Source of the DNA: Sinonovacula constricta
Taxonomy: Eukaryota; Mollusca; Bivalvia; Cardiida; Solecurtidae
Length of the DNA stretch: 64,000 nt
Direction of reading: 5' to 3'
Assembly: GCA_007844125.1 (NCBI GenBank)
Contig: CM017558.1
Coordinates: 43,024,769 to 43,088,768, forward strand
Under the pieces are notes generated by a model. That model worked only from the letters and a program-made list of their open reading frames with translations. It ran no database searches and was not told the origin of the DNA. Below are positions 4,481-56,526 of the stretch, piece after piece (the stretch's first letter is position 1; every line of letters begins with the position of its first letter). The position numbers and the translations under genes were made by a program.

Positions 4481-4497
4481 AATAATAATAATGATAA
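3541..4497. other. No gene recognised; poly-T and GAT/AAT microsatellites
   Basis: A poly-T run spans about 4285-4324 and a (GAT)n/(AAT)n tract about 4431-4497, ending exactly where the mini-LTR element begins. An open frame at 3665-3877 has no recognisable domain and is not called as a gene. Confidence 0.5.
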
Positions 4498-4627
4498 TGT
4501 AGCCGGGTGATAGGGAGAGAATGTGTAAGCGGTCCGGTTAGCTCAGTCGGAAGAGCATTCGCCCTGTTAGCGAAGTGTCCCGGGTTCGAGTCCCTGACTG
4601 GCTGCACATTTTTCTCCCTATGTTACA
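4498..4627 (+). repeat. 5' LTR of mini LTR element, copy 1
   Basis: The 130-bp LTR has inverted halves. ATAGGGAGA, ATGTG and AGC on the left are matched by GCT, CACAT and TCTCCCTAT on the right, and TGTA/TACA close the ends. The tRNA-like sequence sits at the apex. Its only difference from the other LTR is T at 4595 (G at 4850), which breaks a pair in the T-stem. Confidence 0.85.
4532..4604 (+). tRNA. tRNA-like sequence inside the 5' LTR
   Basis: Cloverleaf parts are visible: D-arm GCTC/GAGC around AGTCGGAA, anticodon arm TTCGC/GCGAA with loop CCTGTTA, and T-loop TTCGAGT with a CCGGG/CCTGG stem (one pair broken here). Acceptor strands GTCCGGT and ACTGGCT pair imperfectly. The anticodon position would read TGT, but base 33 is C rather than T, so decoding activity is doubtful. 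The A and B boxes of a pol III promoter are recognisable (TTAGCTCAGTCGG; GGTTCGAGTCC). It is more likely a transcription or processing module of the LTR than a working tRNA. Confidence 0.6.
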
Positions 4628-4628
4628 T

Positions 4629-4646
4629 TGGCGCCCAACGTGGGGC
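4629..4646 (+). promoter_or_regulatory. Primer-binding site, tRNA-Lys type
   Basis: TGGCGCCCAACGTGGGGC lies one base after the LTR end. It is complementary to the 3' end of a tRNA-Lys and is the classic position and sequence for minus-strand priming in LTR elements. The primer tRNA (Lys) is therefore not the tRNA-like sequence carried in the LTR. Confidence 0.85.
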
Positions 4647-4752
4647 GACCCGCGGTCGTTACGTACAAGTGCTTGAAAAGTGCTTGTGAGTTGTATGTAG
4701 AGTATATAGTCTGTGGAAATTCGAGAACGAATTTCAAGTTGCCCGGGGTGTA

Positions 4753-4882
4753 TGTAGCCGGGTGATAGGGAGAGAATGTGTAAGCGGTCCGGTTAGCTCA
4801 GTCGGAAGAGCATTCGCCCTGTTAGCGAAGTGTCCCGGGTTCGAGTCCCGGACTGGCTGCACATTTTTCTCCCTATGTTACA
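4753..4882 (+). repeat. 3' LTR of mini LTR element, copy 1
   Basis: It is 129/130 identical to the 5' LTR by position-by-position reading. This copy keeps the fully paired T-stem (CCGGG/CCCGG) and so probably represents the source sequence. Confidence 0.85.
4787..4859 (+). tRNA. tRNA-like sequence inside the 3' LTR
   Basis: It has the same parts as the 5' LTR copy, with an intact T-arm. There is no intron and no encoded CCA; the sequence continues GCA. The anticodon arm has five perfect pairs (TTCGC/GCGAA). Confidence 0.6.
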
Positions 4883-5001
4883 ATAATAATAATAATATAG
4901 TAATAACATGAGCAAAGAAGTATTAAGTGTGGCAAAATGAATTAGATCTTTTTTCTCTGCAAGGTAAACACATTTGGCCAATCGCTTTAAAAGCCCAGCT
5001 A

Positions 5002-5820
5002 GTCAATAGATACCACATCATTTTCAAATAAATCAGTATTGTTTTTGATCAAATCATACCTATTGTTTACAAATAACGACAACATTATCTGTGATAATGT
5101 TTCACCTTGCTAAACACCTGTAAAACTACTGAAAAAGGGTGATCATTTACCGTTTAAACGTAGACACGTTTGCACTTGATCATACATTGTGTGCACAATT
5201 TTAATTACTTTCAAGAACAACCATACCTCATTAACTTGACTAGTATTCCATTCCTATAAACAAGGTCAAAAGCTTTTTTGAAAACAAACAAACAGCAATA
5301 TAGATTTATTGGTTCATTATTTACAACTTTATCAATGATACTATATATTTAAAAAGAAATATACAATCTATAGTGTCATCTGCAAAAAGCAGTAATAACG
5401 AACGAATTCCGTCAATAGATACCACATAATTTTATTGTAAATAAGTATTGTTTTTGATAAAATCATACATATCGTTTATAAATAACAAAATCATTATCGG
5501 TGATAATGTTTCACCTTGCTTAACACCTGTAAAACTACTGAAAAAGGGTGATCATTTACCGTTTAAACGTACACACATTTGCACTTGATCATACATTGTT
5601 TGCATAATTTTTATTACTTTCGAAGAACAACCATACCTCATTAACTTGACCAGTATTCCATGCCTATAAACAAGGTCAAACGCTTTTTTAAAAATCAATA
5701 AAAACAATATAGATTTATTCGTTCATTATTTACAACTTTATCAATGATATTATTTAAAAGATGTAAACGTTTTTCTTTCTAGAACCAAATTGATATACGT
5801 GCAAGATGGAATTTAATTTG
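5002..5820 (-). repeat. 409-bp tandem duplication inside decayed LINE
   Basis: The segment beginning GTCAATAGATACCACAT occurs at 5002 and again at 5411. Both copies run through the same RT-derived sequence. In the minus-strand reading of the second copy one frame contains GVKQGETLSPIM, the RT motif around the fingers/palm junction. The copies have diverged visibly, so the duplication is old. Confidence 0.65.
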
Positions 5821-9492: not shown

Positions 9493-10430
9493 GTTCATTC
9501 GGATCCTCTCGGTTATTTTGCTGTCAGAAATAGGCCTCGGAGGTAATATGGAGGAAACGTAGCCCCGACAAGATGACAGCCAATCCTCAAAGATCAAGAT
9601 ACAAAATCTATAGTCATAACACGTTGCTAAATGGCACAATATTGAAAAAAAAACAAGGATGGAGAGAGATTGGAGGAGAGGATATTTATTTCGTCGCTGA
9701 GATCTATGAACAACAATCACAAACTATGGGAAATACTGCAACAAGTATTTAAAATGTATGTCTACATTTTGTTACACGAGGTAAAACTGACATTATAAAT
9801 GAAGTCTATACGATACAAACTAAGACAATACACGTGTGTAAACGTGTTGGATACAAATAAGTATAAATGCTATTATGAGAAACCGCGCGGACCTTACAGT
9901 GTTGTGGCTTTAATCTGAGGTGAAAACTTGCGTTTTACTGTATAAGTCTGATTTGGACAGTCAATGCCTTTTTGATTATTTGAAGGCTTTTTTTTTCTAA
10001 GTGGCAACTTAACTTTCTTTTAATTCATATATGGTTTCTGAATGGACCTTTTTCTGTCGCTTAATACTCTGTGTTAATATATATGATCTTGAATTGCAAA
10101 TGTTAAAATGCTCAAAACGAGCAAAATATAACGTTTATTCTCCTCACTAACCGAACAATATATAACTAAAACCTTGCTTTCGCTTTTGTCGCCAAAGTCG
10201 ATCATAGCCGATAATTACATCGGTCATTTCCATTAAACATGCCGTAAGGAGACGGTGTCGTTGGTGATTAAATTGCAAACTATATATTATTTTAAATGTG
10301 CAGGAGCTACGTTAGGATGCAGGAAGACTAAAGCACGTACCGAGAATCCCGGGGTGTCAATGCCCTTACCTTAAAGATTCTTTTCCGAACGTGTACGAAA
10401 AGAGCCGGAGATGATTCGAATGGCTTCCAA
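9490..10430. other. No gene recognised
   Basis: AT-rich DNA without coding signal that I can support. Confidence 0.45.
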
Positions 10431-28748: not shown

Positions 28749-28773
28749 TGTAACATAGGCAGAAAAATGTGCA

Positions 28774-28848
28774 GCCAGTCCGGGAATAAAAATCGGGACC
28801 CTTCAGTAACATGCCAAATGTTCTACCAACTGAGCTTACCGGACCGCT
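28774..28848 (-). tRNA. Decayed tRNA-like sequence in 3' LTR of copy 2
   Basis: The minus-strand sequence GGTCCGGTAAGCTCAGTTGG is followed by TAGAACATT and a T-arm region GGGTCCCGATTTTTATTCCC. The T-loop TTCGA is lost. It is probably non-functional. Confidence 0.5.
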
Positions 28849-29025
28849 TACACATTATCTCTCAATCACCCAGCTACATACGCCCAGGGCAAGTTGAAAT
28901 TTATCCTCAAATTTCCACAGACCATAAGCTCTATATGTAACCCACAAGCACCCCTCAAGCACCTCTACCTTAACAATCGCTGGTCATTTACGTTGGGCAC
29001 CATTGTAACACAAAGAAGAAAATGT

Positions 29026-29101
29026 GCAGTCTGACTGGGACTCGAACCAGGGACCTTCGCTAACAAGGCGAATGCTCTACCGCTTGTGCCAACCGGACCA
29101 A
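29026..29101 (-). tRNA. tRNA-like sequence in 5' LTR of copy 2
   Basis: The anticodon arm TTCGC/GCGAA has loop CTTGTTA, here with the normal U33 and anticodon position TGT (threonine type if read literally). The T-arm is CCTGG-TTCGAGT-CCCAG (four of five pairs). The D-arm is altered (GGCACAAGCGGTAGAGC). The anticodon stem is unchanged compared with copy 1 although the rest has drifted. Confidence 0.55.
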
Positions 29102-29132
29102 TTTCACACTCCCTCCCTATTACACGGCTACA

Positions 29133-37289: not shown

Positions 37290-39540
37290 AGATAAACAGT
37301 CTCAACATAAACGACATTTCATGAAAATCAAATACATTAATAAAGGGATTGATTTTATCGACTTACCTAGTATCTTTCGGGACAAAAATATCATCAATAA
37401 AATCCCCAGTTACTTCGAAAACAAAGAAAACCTAATGATTTGTTATAAGTACAAAAAACCCATTAGAGGTCTTATTTTTAATTACAACTAAACAGTAGCA
37501 GACCTTAACCTAAATGACCCTTCTCAAGATTCTTGTTACTGTTCAACTTCACCTTTCTGTTATGTACCTTCTGGCCATATCATTACTGGGGAATTAAACA
37601 TCATCGATGACTATAAATTGAGAAAATTACTATTTAATGGTCCGAAATATCGCCTGCCAGATGAAATAGATTTTGACCTTTGTTGCAAAGAAATTGCTGA
37701 TGCAATTAATCTGTTTGCCGATCGCTGGTGTAAGAGAGAAAACACGGATACAGTAGCACTTAATACTTGGAGTAAGCCATTTTTAAGATAATAAAAAATC
37801 GCGTTAAATTCTACCGCTCCCATACTTCTAGTTTACTTAAGAAACCTTTTTATCACTTAAAACATCTAAAACAGTCCTTTCAGAATATTCACGATAAATT
37901 TGTACTTGTACCTGCAGACAAAGCTTCAAACAACATAATTTTTGTCTGACGACTATATTACAAAAATGTACTGAGTGCTGAGGTATTCACCACCAGCTCT
38001 TAGTCTTGCACCAAACTTGACTTTCAGACAGTCATTGACAAACATAAACAGATATTGCATAATTTCAATATTAAAATAGAACCAAAGCTAGAAAAACTTC
38101 CCTCCTTGTACTGGATTTCTAAGCTTCACAAAACACCATACAAGTCACGATTCATAGCTAATTCTAACTGTAGCACCACCACTTACATATCTAAACTATT
38201 TACGTCTTGCCTTACAGCCGTTCGCAATCAAGTTGTTAAACATTGTGAAAAAGTGTATGAAAATTCAGGAATTAACATTTTTGGTCTATTATTTTTTTTT
38301 CAGAAGTCTTAGACAAGTTTCTTACTTTAAACTTTCATTGCTGTGCAGTAAATACTTACGATTTCTCTACGCTGTACACTTCTTTACCTCATGATTTAAT
38401 TAAAACAAAATTGATTGCTCTTATTGAGAAAACATTTGCTCGAGAGCAACGTCTATATATTGCATGTCATGAAAATAATGCATCTTTTACCAACACTTTC
38501 TTAGAAAAGTTTACTATGTGGACTTTCACGGATGTTTGTGAAGCTTTACGTTTTCTATTAGACAATATTTACATAAAATGCGGTGACACTTTATTTAGAC
38601 AAGTAATTGGTATCCCTATGGGAACCAACTGTGCACCTTTAATTGCAGATTTGTTTTTTTACTGCTTTGAACGTGGTTTCATGTTAACTTTATCCCCTTC
38701 AAACCAAAGCCACATTATAGAGGCTTTCAATTTAATGTCACGCTATCTTGACGATATTCTAACTATAGATAATCCTTTCTTTTCTCAAATGATCCATCTG
38801 ATTTACCCTCCAGAATTTACCCTTAATAAAGCAAATAACTGGCATTTAAATGCAGCATTTCTAGACATTGAGATCAATATTTCCAATGACAACGTCTCTA
38901 CTAAAATCTATGACAAGAGAGATGAATTCAACTTAAGTTTTGTGAATTATTCATACCTTGATGGTGATTCACCTCGTGCTAGCTCCTATGGTATTTACAT
39001 ATCACAACTTACAAGGTTTGCACGAGTTTGTACCTGTATATTTCTTCTAAACTGTTACAGCAAGGCTTTCGTTTTCATAAATTGAGAAAGGCGTTTTCAA
39101 AATTCTTTCACCGCAATGGTTTTATTGCTTCTAAGTATAATAGCAGTATGAAAACAATGATGCAGAAAGGCATAAGCCATCCTGCATTTTATGGAAATGT
39201 TTTATACAAGTTAAAGAAGATCAAGGGTCTCAATAACTTTTCTGACCACTTTACAAAACTTATCAGAAAATGTATTGCAGACGGTTACAACCCGGGAATC
39301 CTTCAATGTACTGCGTTGCTTGCAACTGACCCTTTTACAGCCAAATACTTGCTTTTAAATTACACGATGACCGGACAGTTCGTTGAGACTATATGAAAAC
39401 AGTGACTTAAAGCCATAATTGGACAGTCACTGTTGGATTTCTTGTCTCTTTATCTCTCCAGTCGTGCCCTATATAGGTGGGACAACTTGAGCATTCTCCA
39501 TACCCTTTACGTGAGATTGCACAGTAGGTATAACATTTTT
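37290..39540 (+). mobile_element. Penelope-like RT element, copy B (longest)
   Basis: Plus-strand frames cover an N-terminal region (about 37330-37790: SYFENKENLMICYKYKKP, a Cys-rich CYCSTSPFC, HIITGELNIIDDYKLRKLLF), then VLVPADKASNN near 37910, PSLYWISKLHKTPYKSRFIA, YDFSTLYTSLPHDLIKTKL, GIPMGTNCAPLIADLF, SRYLDDILTIDN and the C-terminal FFHRNGF...GISHPAFYGNV block. At least four frame breaks (about 37490, 37790, 37930, 38300) and one near 39050 inactivate it. Its 3' end is TACGTGAGATTGCACAGTAG, also at copy C. Catalytic Asp residues (YDFS, YLDD) are intact. No GIY-YIG domain was seen at either end. Confidence 0.75.
38411..39085 (+). pseudogene. Penelope-like reverse transcriptase palm, copy B
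   Basis: A 224-residue frame from IALIEKTFAREQRLYIACHE through TMWTFTDVCEALRFLLDNIY, GIPMGTNCAPLIADLF, SRYLDDILTIDN, FLDIEINISNDNV and FVNYSYLDGDSPRASSYG. It shifts frame just after YISQLTRFARVC; the continuation is in 39028-39396 (LLQQGFRFHKLRKAFSKFF ... GISHPAFYGN). Both catalytic aspartates of YLDD are present. Confidence 0.8.
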
Positions 39541-39848: not shown

Positions 39849-40437
39849 ATGTAGACTAGAGTCAGTGGGATCAGTACTTGGACTTGGAGAATGTGAACAA
39901 TTGTCAGATTGTTCCAATTTGCCCGAGCAAGAGACTTATTTGTTGGGGTCTCTGAGACTACATTATAATTATGGGTATCAGGTAAGTGTTAACTTGACCT
40001 GGCAGAACTGGAACACAGACAAACATTGTCTCTTTTTCTGATGACGTTTTATCTCCCTCACTTTCATGAACATTAGATGAACAACTTGTATGTTTCATCA
40101 AAGGTTTACATCTTTGTTTACTAGAGATACACTTAGACTGTTCAGAAGCAAGATTTGGACAAGGCAAAATTAAATTTCTATGTTGAGTCTTGATAGGTCC
40201 TCTCTTATCCTCTAACTGTACTTGTACGACAGGGTTGTCTGGATTGGGAATAGAGACTACACCATAAATATCTTGGTCCCATTTGTCAGCAAGTTTCTAA
40301 GTTCCTTTTAAACCAACCTTACGTTTAGGTACGCGACCACCAACTTCTAACATGGTGTGCCACCCATACTGTTGCTTATTTTTTGCTTACTTGCTTTTCA
40401 GCTTCTTCGGCGGCTGTCCTATAAACTGTAAGCGTTG

Positions 40438-40698
40438 TTAAAAATTTCTTTGTATAGAGTGCCAGCCGTACATGAGGTAATGGGCTGCGTAGCCAGTCGC
40501 GTCATTCTTGGTCGCGTTGTACGCTTGTATGAGTAGTGCTATGTATGACTTCCAGTCGGACTTTTGATAGTTTTCTAGGGTGCCGAGCATTTTAACAGGG
40601 TTTGATTCTGCTGAACCATTACCCATTGGATGGTATGGTGTAGTTTTTGACTTCTTAATGCATGCAATCTTGCATAACTTCTTGACATTATGACTCAA
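40438..40698 (-). pseudogene. Gypsy integrase core, C-terminal part
   Basis: An 86-residue frame: KTTPYHPMGNGSAESNPVKM then DWKSYIALLIQAYNATKNDA and a YLMYGW-type GPY-like end. The catalytic Glu of the D,D35E triad sits in GSAESN (consensus G..ER.N). The upstream Asp residues fall in the frame-broken stretch 40700-40860. Confidence 0.75.
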
Positions 40699-40863
40699 GA
40701 AGTTACGGCCTTGTTCACTGTGGAGTTGTTCAGGGAAACCATAATATTGAAAGAAACCTTTATACAGAGCCTTGGCCGTTGTAAGAGCAGACTGATTGCG
40801 ACAGGAGATAGCCTGTGCAAAACGAGTAAAATGGTCTACAATAACCAGAATGTTTCAAAAGTT

Positions 40864-41133
40864 TTAAAAAGTCAATGGAACAAGCTCCATAGGCCTGGTG
40901 GTATGAATTGTCTGCAATTCTGCAAACGGTCTGGAAAATGTAGTTTTCCGACGGATACAACGTCCACTTTGTTCAACCCATCGTGAAATATTAGCATCCA
41001 TAATAGGCCAATAAAACCGTTGCTTAGCTAACCATTCCCTGGTGACCTCCATCATTATGAATGCCTCTAAGAGCATTATTCCGATGAGAAAACGGGATAA
41101 CAAGCTGCTTAACCTGACTTCCATCTGTAGCAT
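40864..41133 (-). pseudogene. Gypsy integrase zinc-binding region
   Basis: The frame contains EWLAKQRFYWPIMDANISRW and SGRCIRRK, the HHCC-domain part of Gypsy integrases (GH..K....R..YWP.M...I...V..C..C). The His pair is in another frame just upstream (LRGIHNDGGHQG), so a frameshift separates them and one Cys is replaced by Ser. Confidence 0.7.
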
Positions 41134-41384
41134 CTATAAAAAATACCTTTATCTAGGAATAGACGATCTGGATCTTTCAGACATTTCTCGCTGATGCTGA
41201 CTCCTGACTTAGTGTCTGTCTTGAAAATTTACCAGCCCTAATCAGCTCTATAATCCGCTGTAAAATTTGATCTGAACTCTGCTCTATCTTTCAGTCTATC
41301 TTGGCTACAGCCTCAGTGCTATCTTGGCTACTGTGCAATCTCACGTAAAGGGTATGAAGACTGCTCAAGTTGTCTCACCTATAT

Positions 41385-42705
41385 AGGGCACGGCTGGAGA
41401 GATGAAAAGATGAAAAAAACAAGAAATCCAACAGTAACTTCCAATTATGACTTTAGGTCACTGTTTTCATATAGTCTCAACGACCTGTTCGGTCATCGTG
41501 TACTTTAAAAGCAATGCAAGTTCTTGACTGCAAAAGGGTCAATTGCAAGCAATGCAGTACAACGAAGGATTCTCGGGTTGTAACTGTCAGCAATAGATAA
41601 GTTTTGTAAAATGGTCAGAAAAGTTATTGAGACCCTTGATTTTTTTAACGTGTATAAAACATTTCCATAAATAGCAGGATAGCTTAAGCCTTTCTGCATA
41701 CTGTTATTATATTCAGAAGCAATAAAATCATGGTGGTGAAAGAACTTTGATAACGCTTTTCTTAATTTATGAAAACGAAAGCCTTGATGTAAAAGTTTAG
41801 TAGAAATAACCCGGTTTCTAGCATTGGAATCTTCTACATTAGTACAAACTCGTGCAAACCTTGTAAGTTGTGATATGTAATTACCACAGGAGCTAGCACG
41901 AGGTGAATCACCGTCAAGGTATGGATAATTCACAATACTAAATTTAATATCATCTTTCTTGTCATAGATTTTAGTAGAGACGTTGTCATTGGAAATATTG
42001 ATCTCAATGTCTAGAAATGCTGCATTTAAATTTCAGTTATTTGCTTTATTAAGGGTACTTCTGGAGGGTAAATCAGATAGATCATTTGAGAAAAGAAAGG
42101 ATTATCTATAGTAAAAATATCGTCAAGATAGCGTGACGTTAAATTGGAAGCCTCTATAATGTAGTTTTGGTTAGAAGGGGATAAAGTTAACACGAAATCA
42201 CGTTCAAAGCAGTAAAACAACAAATCTGCAATTAAAGGCGCACAGTTGGTTCCCATAGAAATACCAATTTCTTGTCTAAATAAAGTGTCACCGCATTTTT
42301 ATGTAAATAGTGTCAAATAGTAAACATAGAGCTTCACAAACATCCGTGCAAGTCCACATAGTAAACTTTTCTAAGAAAGTGTTGGTAAAAAATGCATCAT
42401 TTTCATGACATGCAATATATAGACGTTGCTCTCGAGCAATTGTTTTCTCAATAAGAGCAATCAATTTGGTTTTAATTAAATCATGAAGCAAAAAAGTGTA
42501 CATCGTAGAGAAATCGTAACCATTAACTGCAGAGCAATAAAAGTTTAAAGTACGAAACTTGTCTAAGACTTCTGAAGAACTCTTAATAGACCAAAAAATG
42601 TTACTTCCTGAATTTCCATACACTATTTCACAATATTTAACAACGTGATTACGAACGGCTGCAAGGCAAGAAGTAAGTAGATTAGATATGTGAGTTGTGA
42701 TGATT
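41385..42705 (-). mobile_element. Penelope-like RT element, copy C, inside Gypsy element
   Basis: Frames 42623-42288, 42256-42026 and 41933-41505 give YDFSTMYTFLLHDLIKTKL, MGTNCAPLIADLLFYCF, SRYLDDIFTIDN and YISQLTRFARVCTNVED. It is 5'-truncated near 42705 (TSCLAAVRNHVVKYC is readable upstream of the first frame) and ends with the same GAGATTGCACAGTAG as copy B. It lies exactly between protease and integrase of the Gypsy element. Constant 3' end and variable 5' end are typical of target-primed insertion. Confidence 0.75.
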
Positions 42706-42825
42706 GAGCTGACAATATTCCTTGCTGTACCATATACAGTGACAGTCTAATATGGTGAAATAGATATGGTTTCCTTACCACATAATATCAATGGATATGT
42801 GTCTGAAAACAAGAATCACAGAAAT

Positions 42826-43347
42826 CTACCATTCTTCTGGAAGACTATTCCCAGCAGTTGACTCACCTAGATATGACTTACACCTTCGCAGAGCATTTGT
42901 TCCAATGATCACTGGACATGATCTGTTGAACTCATTGTCAGGGATTACTAAAATGGGGGTGTCAAGTTTAAAACAAGACAAAGATGGAATAGAGACTTCA
43001 ACCTCAGTATATCCGAGATAAATGAAAGACGAACCATCTGCAAGTGAAAGGTTTAGTCCAAGAGAATCTAGTGGATGAAGTGAAACACTTGGACTCAAAG
43101 ATCTGAACAGTGAATGACTAATGGTGGATACCATTGAACCAGTATCCAACAGACATTTGTAGTTTACCACATTAAGTAAGACAAAGTGTTCATTTTCATT
43201 ACCAATGCGTTTGTCAGCTAATACATCTTCATCTGTCTGGGCAACCCTTTTACCTACCCTCCCACTACAGAGGCGGTTATCAGTGTGTTGAGTTATTACC
43301 ATTACACCTTGCATAACGGTAGCTCTGCTGACCACGACCACCTCCAC
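42826..43347 (-). pseudogene. Gypsy retropepsin-like protease
   Basis: The frame contains YKCLLDTGSMVSTISHSLF, the DTGS active-site motif of retroviral-type aspartic proteases, followed by LGYTEVEVSIPSLS and CPVIIGTNAL, the usual C-terminal strand (ILG.N/D.L). The protein is Gypsy pol N-terminal; it cleaves Gag-Pol in particles. Upstream Gly/Arg residues come from a decayed nucleocapsid region. Confidence 0.8.
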
Positions 43348-43600
43348 GGTCTCTAAAGTTGTTCTGTGCCTGAAAAGTTACCATAGTTAGTGACATTTCG
43401 GCTAACCTCAATTCTTTGCAAAATTTGGTCTAATTTGTCATCAATCTTCTTGTCTAACTGCAATACAGTTTCGAAAGTTTCTTTTCAAGGGAGACAATTC
43501 TGTTCTCAAAAAAGACTCAGGAAGATATAGGAGTATGTTTCATTTGTTTAGAGATAGTCGCACCAGAAGACATACATGAAAGTGAGGTCTGCGTAGAACT

Positions 43601-44302
43601 CTAATTGTTCAATTCCTTTTCTAGCTTTCTTACTTCTTTCATCAGTAAATTGTAATCTGAGACCGAGTCATATTTGTGTCTAGTGTTTATCTTGAGCATT
43701 TCCGATTGCAAACCAGTCCAGAATTTGTGTCTGAGCAAATCATTCTTGGCTAATCCTGGCAACTGACCTTTGGAAATAATTGACTGTAAGAGTGTTTCAA
43801 ACCTATATGCAAATGCAGTCACTGACTTAGTAGGGTTTTGTTTACGATTGAAAAACTCTAGGATCACGTCTTCTTGAGATGCAGCATCTGCAAACATAAC
43901 TTCCCTCTTCCCAACTATTTCATCAATTGTGGCATCCTGCCCAGGTGGTATAACCATAAATCTAGCAGTGCCCCTGAGTGAACCTCTCACAACGTGCAGA
44001 ATTTGTGCCCGTGTCAAGTCATTATTACTCTGAAAGCATTGCACTTCATATTTCCAAAATTGTATAAGACACCTCACCCTTGGGTAGTAATCATCCCCTG
44101 AAAAATATGATATCTTTGGCAAAGTCTGTGGATAGGCAGTAACGGGTCTGGCTATTACAGGAGCAGAAGAAAGTAATGACTGTCTTGAATGAACATTTTG
44201 ATCTGGTGCTGCAATATTTCTCAAAGGAGTTGGCACTCTGGGTTTAGCTCCTTGATTACACACTTTTATCCACTCAGCCAAGCGAGGCCGGGGAGGAGAC
44301 AC
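43601..44302 (-). CDS. Gypsy Gag capsid-like protein
   Basis: A 233-residue intact frame. After a Pro-rich N-terminus (MSPPRPRLAEW) comes PKISYFSGDDYYPRVRCLIQ, FWKYEVQCFQSN, ILHVVRGSLRGTARFMV, EDVILEFFNRKQNPTKSV and FAYRFETLLQSI. This is the retrotransposon-Gag/PNMA-like capsid fold seen in Gypsy elements (FSG...F..W..EV motif). It ends in a charged helix (MKEVRKLEKELNN). It packages element RNA. No zinc knuckle is in this frame. It is the longest intact coding frame of this element; there is no evidence of domestication. Confidence 0.75.
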   Translation of the reverse strand: MSPPRPRLAEWIKVCNQGAKPRVPTPLRNIAAPDQNVHSRQSLLSSAPVIARPVTAYPQTLPKISYFSGDDYYPRVRCLIQFWKYEVQCFQSNNDLTRAQILHVVRGSLRGTARFMVIPPGQDATIDEIVGKREVMFADAASQEDVILEFFNRKQNPTKSVTAFAYRFETLLQSIISKGQLPGLAKNDLLRHKFWTGLQSEMLKINTRHKYDSVSDYNLLMKEVRKLEKELNN

Positions 44303-44309
44303 CTTTTAA

Positions 44310-56165: not shown

Positions 56166-56526
56166 AATAAAACTACACAAAATCCCGTTTTTGTACCACC
56201 CATATAGGGCACGACTTGAGAGATGAAGAGACAGAAATCCAACAGTGACTGTACAATTATGGCTTTAAGTCACGGTTTTCATATAGTCTCAACGACCACT
56301 CGGGTCAATGTGTAATTTAAAAGCTATGCAAGTTCTTGACTGTAAAAGGGTCAATTGTAAGCAATGCAGTACAACGAAGGATTCACGGGTTGTAACCGTC
56401 TGCAATACATTTTCTGATAAGTTTTGTAAAGTGGTCAGAAATGTTATTGAGACTCTTGATTTTCTTTAACTTGTATAAAAACATTTCTATAAAATGCAGG
56501 ATGGCTTATGCCTTTCTGCATAAGTG

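Follow-up and report, generated by a model that had tools for sequence, protein, structure and literature searches.

A short, non-coding element of the Helenus type, 385 bp long and made of two LTRs and an interior, lies at positions 4498-4882 of the window, by which we mean the whole stretch of 64,000 nucleotides analysed here (Table 1). This anatomy of LTRs, primer-binding site (PBS) and interior bears out the original prediction, which saw in it a miniature LTR retroelement (TRIM). As predicted, the LTRs are 130 bp each, with a single difference at LTR position 98 (T vs G), and the interior of 125 bp is non-coding. The possible target duplication ATAA is a mixed case: the identical flanks are real but weak evidence by themselves, because the element lies in an ATA repeat, and the test comes from the rest of the family.

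Table 1. Positions of the parts of the Helenus-type element and of its second copy in the window
Feature	Position	Strand	Basis or remark
Target duplication ATAA, left copy	4494-4497		In ATA repeat
5' LTR, 130 bp, TGTAGCC...GTTACA	4498-4627	+	Repeat comparison
Extended stem, 5' arm	4498-4526	+	Pairs with 4604-4627, tRNA at tip
tRNA-Thr(UGU)-like sequence, 5' LTR	4532-4605	+	ARAGORN; Rfam 38.6 bits; box A TAGCTCAGTCGG, box B GGTTCGAGTCC
Extended stem, 3' arm	4604-4627	+	Pairs with 4498-4526
T5 run directly 3' of tRNA, 5' LTR	4609-4613	+	Possible pol III terminator inside LTR
Interior, non-coding, 125 bp	4628-4752	+	Most other outlined interiors 124 bp
tRNA-Lys PBS, full 18 nt	4629-4646	+	Pattern match; assigned by tRNA-Lys(CUU) 3' end
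Interior hairpin GAAATTCG-AGAA-CGAATTTC	4716-4735	+	In 30 of 33 interiors, at most one base from commonest form
Polypurine-tract-like interior end GGGGTGTA	4745-4752	+	Only partly purine, weak as polypurine tract
3' LTR, 130 bp	4753-4882	+	Repeat comparison
tRNA-Thr(UGU)-like sequence, 3' LTR	4787-4860	+	ARAGORN; Rfam 46.0 bits
T5 run, 3' LTR	4864-4868	+	Run of 5 T
Target duplication ATAA, right copy	4883-4886		Flank comparison
Second copy	28749-29132	-	5' LTR 29004-29132, interior 28879-29003, 3' LTR 28749-28878

Each LTR does hold the tRNA-like sequence that had been claimed for it: ARAGORN reports Thr(tgt) in both, and both score above the gathering score (29) of Rfam RF00005. As a tRNA it is imperfect, having a mismatch in the acceptor and, just before the anticodon, a C in place of the usual T; T33 in that place is nearly universal in tRNAs. 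Besides the two LTR T-runs, the window element has no run of four or more T. The predicted tRNA-Lys PBS, TGGCGCCCAACGTGGGGC, is there in its full 18 nt, one base past the 5' LTR. Its primer we take to be tRNA-Lys(CUU), identified by the 3' end of that tRNA, on which the 18 nt would run to the base before A58. The first 17 nt with up to three mismatches match twice in the window (0.01 expected); the other match, at 10421, has three mismatches, and inspection by eye of its surroundings showed no LTR. At the far end of the interior, AGTTGCCCGGGGTGTA, that is GGGGTGTA with its flank, closes 26 of 34 interiors and is only partly purine. Folding of the interior was dropped as a feature, since it gave z -3.2 in one window copy (A) and 0.0 in the other (B). 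Downstream of the element the window has a tandem duplication at 5002-5756, with a spacing of about 409 bp and 85-91% identity.

The second copy in the window is older, lies on the minus strand, is 80.6% identical to the first from end to end and has the flanks TGGG/TGGG. ARAGORN finds a tRNA in its 5' LTR only; three of the four window LTRs are thus labelled tRNA-Thr genes, which is a warning to tRNA annotation. A search of the 1.22-Gb genome gave at least 52 matches among those listed (1953 candidates, 40 scored). From 30 fetched loci, 32 elements were outlined, and after six had been dropped as the same places, 26 with distinct flanks were left. Exact 4-bp duplications surround 16 of these 26, as against 20 of 650 when flanks were paired across elements as a control. 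Five of the ten elements without an exact duplication are fusions, to which we return below, one of the five matching in three of four bases; the others are L011, L017, L014, L010 and L030. Some of the genome copies are tandem arrays of LTR and interior. One rearranged copy, L010, has a truncated LTR at its end, and beyond this come LTR and interior pieces in inverted orientation (L036:1841-1948), a snap-back-like arrangement. Checked on the 30 loci for shared ends, duplications, the PBS and an origin in a tRNA gene cluster, the original prediction was not refuted, though ten of the 26 elements are without an exact duplication.

Relatives in phages were considered and rejected. There were 117 matching records, and among the 20 listed the best covers 35% of the element; of these 20 listed, 16 match where a tRNA-Lys gene is annotated and three where there is no annotated feature, while one record is unannotated. 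The exact LTR or PBS patterns occur in none of the viral and prokaryote contigs searched. A looser LTR-end pattern occurs in three such contigs, where BLAST with LTR and interior gave nothing of 50 bp or more.

The supposition that there was no well-described animal family of this kind did not hold. Helenus, published in 2024 (Kojima 2024, PMC10886601), comprises TRIMs with tRNA-derived sequence in their LTRs; they come from fungi, from plants and from animals of six phyla, with bivalves represented. In the sections of that account used here, Helenus elements are 311-1263 bp long; those of animals have 4-bp duplications and a PBS region in common with Gypsy elements, and those of bivalves have tRNA-Lys among their primers and include seven families able to encode tRNA-Thr (PMC10886601). 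The window element agrees in its short, non-coding two-LTR form of 385 bp, in boxes A and B within the LTRs, in a PBS just after the 5' LTR, in the 4-bp duplication and in a PBS common to Gypsy elements, Gypsy being the only group searched. It also agrees in that the tRNA of its LTR lacks complementarity to the PBS of the element; the best match of LTR to primer is 10 of 18, on which self-priming by the LTR tRNA was rejected. A polypurine tract before the 3' LTR belongs to the Helenus description as well; in that place the window element has the conserved but only partly purine GGGGTGTA, a weak candidate for such a tract. By these described features the element is a member of the Helenus kind and not itself a new kind, the comparison with named families being one of description, not of sequence. 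In the same sections of the Helenus account we did not find fused Gypsy-Helenus insertions, 18-nt PBS footprints or the LTR T-run (PMC10886601).

Cassandra was rightly named as the plant analogue. In the parts of its description used here, it too is a TRIM, it forms tandem arrays, and its LTR has both a promoter and a terminator for pol III (PMC7215508); but this LTR carries 5S rRNA sequence where the window element carries tRNA. Ajax of nemerteans likewise has LTR sequence derived from a small RNA, but this is 5S rRNA and, so far as the sections used tell, the duplications are of 5 bp (PMC10886601). No 5S rRNA match reaches the Rfam gathering score in the window, where a tRNA was found instead. 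Retrozymes carry hammerhead ribozymes; the four hits in the window that reach the Rfam gathering score include none. They are likewise short non-coding LTR elements, with LTRs that the sections used describe as unlike those of canonical elements (PMC10886601). The bivalve biv-TRIM is again a TRIM with tandem arrays, but in the parts of its description used here its terminal repeats are 202-218 bp and its interior 77-80 bp, without a clear PBS, as against 130 and 125 bp here (PMC6934838).

A second small LTR element was seen at L024:1884-2324. Its LTR is 168 bp long (TGTAACG...GCGTTACA), has no run of four T and is accompanied by the PBS-like TGGTGGCAGCGGTGGGAT. This LTR resembles the promoter region of 5S rRNA (GGATGGGTGACCG) with a score of 36, as good as which were 11 of 1000 shuffles, in a comparison with a human 5S reference; Rfam gives 5S at only E 6.1. 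The element is possibly an Ajax-like TRIM outside the nemerteans.

What the family keeps in its LTRs bears on how it might be transcribed. The recognisable A and B boxes that had been claimed are a family-wide feature (box A TAGCTCAGTCGG in 54 of 60 LTRs, box B GGTTCGAGTCC in 51), and the T-run after the tRNA is exactly five T in 58 of 60. Counting every run of at least four T, 25 of 26 elements have exactly one in each LTR, and the remaining element has one fewer. Departures from the majority, counted per site over 54 standard-length LTRs, are 0.00 for the T-run, 0.33 for box A, 0.36 for the LTR end after the T-run, 0.73 for box B, 1.00 for the part before the tRNA and 1.30 for the whole tRNA. 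The anticodon loop, with 4.14 (mainly at one site), is the most variable LTR region measured. Since it varies most, and T-run and box A least, the conservation looks like that of a kept promoter and terminator, not that of a decoding tRNA. The suggestion that the tRNA also serves as a processing or localisation module is unsupported by this pattern.

Another potential role for the LTR tRNA has to be weighed here. The element may be the same TRIM with its full-length RNA made by pol II read-through, the tRNA being kept for some other end, for example as a protective or presenting stem. The run of five T inside the 5' LTR, which a pol III transcript would have to pass, speaks for this, and so does the extended stem that the LTR flanks form around the tRNA. 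Pairing of the flanks as good as in the 5' LTR of the element was reached by 2 of 2000 shuffles (3, 2 and 36 of 2000 for the window's other three LTRs). The stem has 23 pairs, and over 32 distinct LTRs 10 of 736 cells are broken, so that 98.6% are paired, against 36-71% in slid controls; the rows are close relatives with few informative changes, and covariation for the stem is therefore thin. The minimum-energy fold of the LTR is this long stem and not the cloverleaf, three of the four window LTRs folding better than shuffles (z -4.1, -5.2 and -3.1). However, shuffles fold as well as the old copy's 5' LTR (z -0.8, 33 of 200), among the LTR regions measured the T-run and box A vary least and the anticodon loop most, and AATAAA and ATTAAA are absent from all 26 elements examined. 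We consider transcription by pol II a possible reading, though rather an unlikely one.

Two further readings would dispense with an LTR element altogether. For a genuine tRNA-Thr gene that was duplicated in tandem together with its flanks speak the two direct tRNA-like copies, 255 bp apart, and the existence of tandem arrays; but a PBS follows one base after the first repeat, the acceptor mismatch and the C before the anticodon ill suit a real tRNA gene, and the dispersed copies with their 4-bp duplications (16 of 26) refute the idea, whose probability we regard as negligible. A dimeric SINE headed by a tRNA and moved by a LINE would agree with the tRNA head and the short length. Such SINEs have LINE-type ends and neither LTR nor PBS, in contrast to the element's PBS and LTR anatomy, with TG...CA ends, 4-bp duplications, near-identical halves and no A-rich tail; these refute the SINE, which we rate as very improbable. 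We keep to a Helenus-type TRIM with a likely promoter and a possible terminator in its LTR.

The PBS of this TRIM deserves closer attention. Of 34 outlined interiors we set aside one, an odd 60-bp piece (L020). Among the remaining 33, 31 start with a match of 13 nt (TGGCGCCCAACGT, or this with one base changed) and continue with AAA, and only the window copy and L010 have the full 18-nt TGGCGCCCAACGTGGGGC, after which the next bases differ (GACCC and CCGCGG). The 18-nt form looks derived, because AAAT is found in the old window copy as well; that it arose twice is suggested by the two junctions. Retroviral progeny, as the parts of the literature used here describe it, has a PBS that either keeps the former sequence or is copied from the primer tRNA (PMC4549124). 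Most simply, the window copy and L010 likely preserve such a copy of their primer. With 18 nt copied each round, the full PBS would be expected to spread through the family, but 31 of 33 interiors are without it. This suggests that the copied tRNA is usually shorter or is seldom inherited; Ty1 is not known to inherit its primer sequence.

The 60-bp interior of L020 stands between two Helenus LTRs and contains TGGGGGCTCGTCCGGGAT, which we take to be a PBS of the tRNA-Pro type, and GGGTTCGAGTCCCTCATTGGGCGCCA, in appearance a tRNA 3' half that includes CCA. A PBS found after another Helenus array (L035), TGGCGCCCAATGAGGGAC, is complementary to the last 18 nt of GGGTTCGAGTCCCTCATTGGGCGCCA. The interior of L020 is a possible captured primer tRNA.

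An element without genes would need the enzymes of others, and these were sought by the PBS. The pattern consisted of the 17-nt PBS and, five places upstream of it, any base but T, so that the usual end of a Helenus LTR was excluded. It occurs at 12 sites of the genome; the reversed pattern occurs at none. Ten of the 12 carry LTRs of two Gypsy families: GyA, with LTRs of 542 bp (L050, L051, L053, L056, L057 and L059), and GyB, with LTRs of 640 bp (L049, L052, L058 and L060); L054 and L055 are others. Reverse transcriptase, RNase H and integrase are encoded both by L051 (GyA), flanked by TAGA on both sides, and by L060 (GyB), flanked by AGAC on both sides. A PNMA-type gag is also present in L060, the only one of the two tested for gag. 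The LTR ends are TGTAGCCGGGTG...GTTACA in Helenus and TGTAACCAGGGTG...GTTACA in GyA (3' LTR of L051), and those of GyA are nearer to Helenus than those of L054 and L055 (TGTCAT, GTGACA). Fused LTRs aside, nothing in common was detectable between the Helenus and Gypsy loci beyond the PBS.

A broken Gypsy element lies in the window itself (39958-44305, minus strand), with a weak PNMA-like gag of 21.5 bits (cut-off 25) and an integrase core of 37.6 bits. It is related to the fetched Gypsy loci at the protein level; as a partner it was rejected, having no clear LTR pair (a 78-nt direct repeat, 88%) and no such PBS. By eye, a piece similar to the ORF at 38276 is inserted in it. Rfam SECIS_1 elements were found at 38276-39448 and 56228-56290 of the window (45.7 and 39.3 bits). 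The first comes after an ORF that seems reverse-transcriptase-like, a decayed frame with TGA codons and 7756 related proteins, for which Pfam gave no family. The combination recalls Penelope-like elements with selenocysteine.

Four of the 12 partner sites (L052, L053, L058 and L059) are fusions, in which a Gypsy LTR and its PBS are followed by an inverted Helenus LTR. In L059 and L053 the junction reads TGGCGCCCAACGTGGGGC-GCCA-(A or T)-TGTAACATAGGG; L058 departs from the simple model by one base and L052 by two. The outer flanks are exact in all four: TAGA (L052), CACT (L053), TGTT (L058) and AAAA (L059). The right end of L053 is the last LTR of a Helenus array. Three further fusions came from five Helenus loci picked by eye. 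In L028 a 327-bp LTR of a third family and its PBS precede Helenus, with flanks CTTA/CTTA. In L035 a three-LTR Helenus array is followed by a PBS for another primer, about 115 bp and an LTR of the L055 type (99.3% identity), with outer flanks TTTA/TTTC that match in three of four bases. In L024 Helenus is joined to the second small LTR element described above, with flanks CATG/CATG. New here are, then, seven insertions that join Helenus to another LTR element, six of them with exact duplications; among the papers listed by our literature search there was none on TRIM-Gypsy fusions.

It could be argued that the fused loci are nested insertions or assembly errors and not co-packaged cDNA, and all of them do come from one genome assembly. 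Yet the outer 4-bp flanks are exact in six of the seven and agree in three of four bases in the seventh. Moreover, the Helenus side of the four tail-to-tail fusions retains PBS bases past the end of its LTR. Had Helenus simply inserted into a Gypsy LTR, these bases would be missing, so the four are not such insertions. We consider nesting or misassembly improbable. Taken as products of reverse transcription, the fusions support co-packaging of Helenus RNA with several LTR elements.

The best explanation of the locus, which we hold with high confidence, is a Helenus-type TRIM that is likely transcribed by pol III from the LTR tRNA and likely copied and inserted by Gypsy enzymes of the same genome. 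Transcription is predicted to start just upstream of the tRNA of the 5' LTR and to terminate in the 3' LTR, at its T5 run; with start and end so placed, the stretch from tRNA to T5 would be R and the last 14 nt (CTCCCTATGTTACA) U5. The T5 run of the 5' LTR precedes the PBS and should stop most pol III transcripts there; because the same signal stands in both LTRs, leaky termination or pol II read-through must be assumed. The RNA would then be packaged together with Gypsy RNA, as the fused insertions suggest, and primed by tRNA-Lys, as the 18-nt PBS of the window copy and L010 supports. If two plus-strand strong-stop DNAs (LTR and PBS) meet, the 3' end GGGC of one may prime on GCCC in the PBS of the other, and the tail-to-tail product could then be integrated by its two LTR ends. 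Integration as such is shown by the exact 4-bp duplications, which are found whether copies are single, in tandem or fused; the inserting enzyme would be a Gypsy integrase. That Helenus cDNA arises in particles that it shares with several Gypsy families, and that strong-stop DNAs, both with the copied 3' end of tRNA-Lys at their tail, cross-primed and were integrated as one two-headed molecule having a Gypsy LTR end and, opposite, a Helenus LTR end, is in our opinion probable.

The partners of TRIMs with pol III promoters have so far been inferred from similarity of the PBS and, in fungi, also of the interior (LTR-1_PTrit and relatives); as far as the sections of the Helenus account used here go, it is not known by what means a TRIM stays dependent on its partner, and nothing points to the partner of Cassandra (PMC10886601). 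Fusions with duplications are physical evidence for common particles and common integration; any good assembly can be searched for them, and they make the question of the partner testable. If our reading is correct, fusions and primer-overwritten PBSs would reveal, from the assembly, the partner and the primer of any orphan TRIM, Cassandra included.
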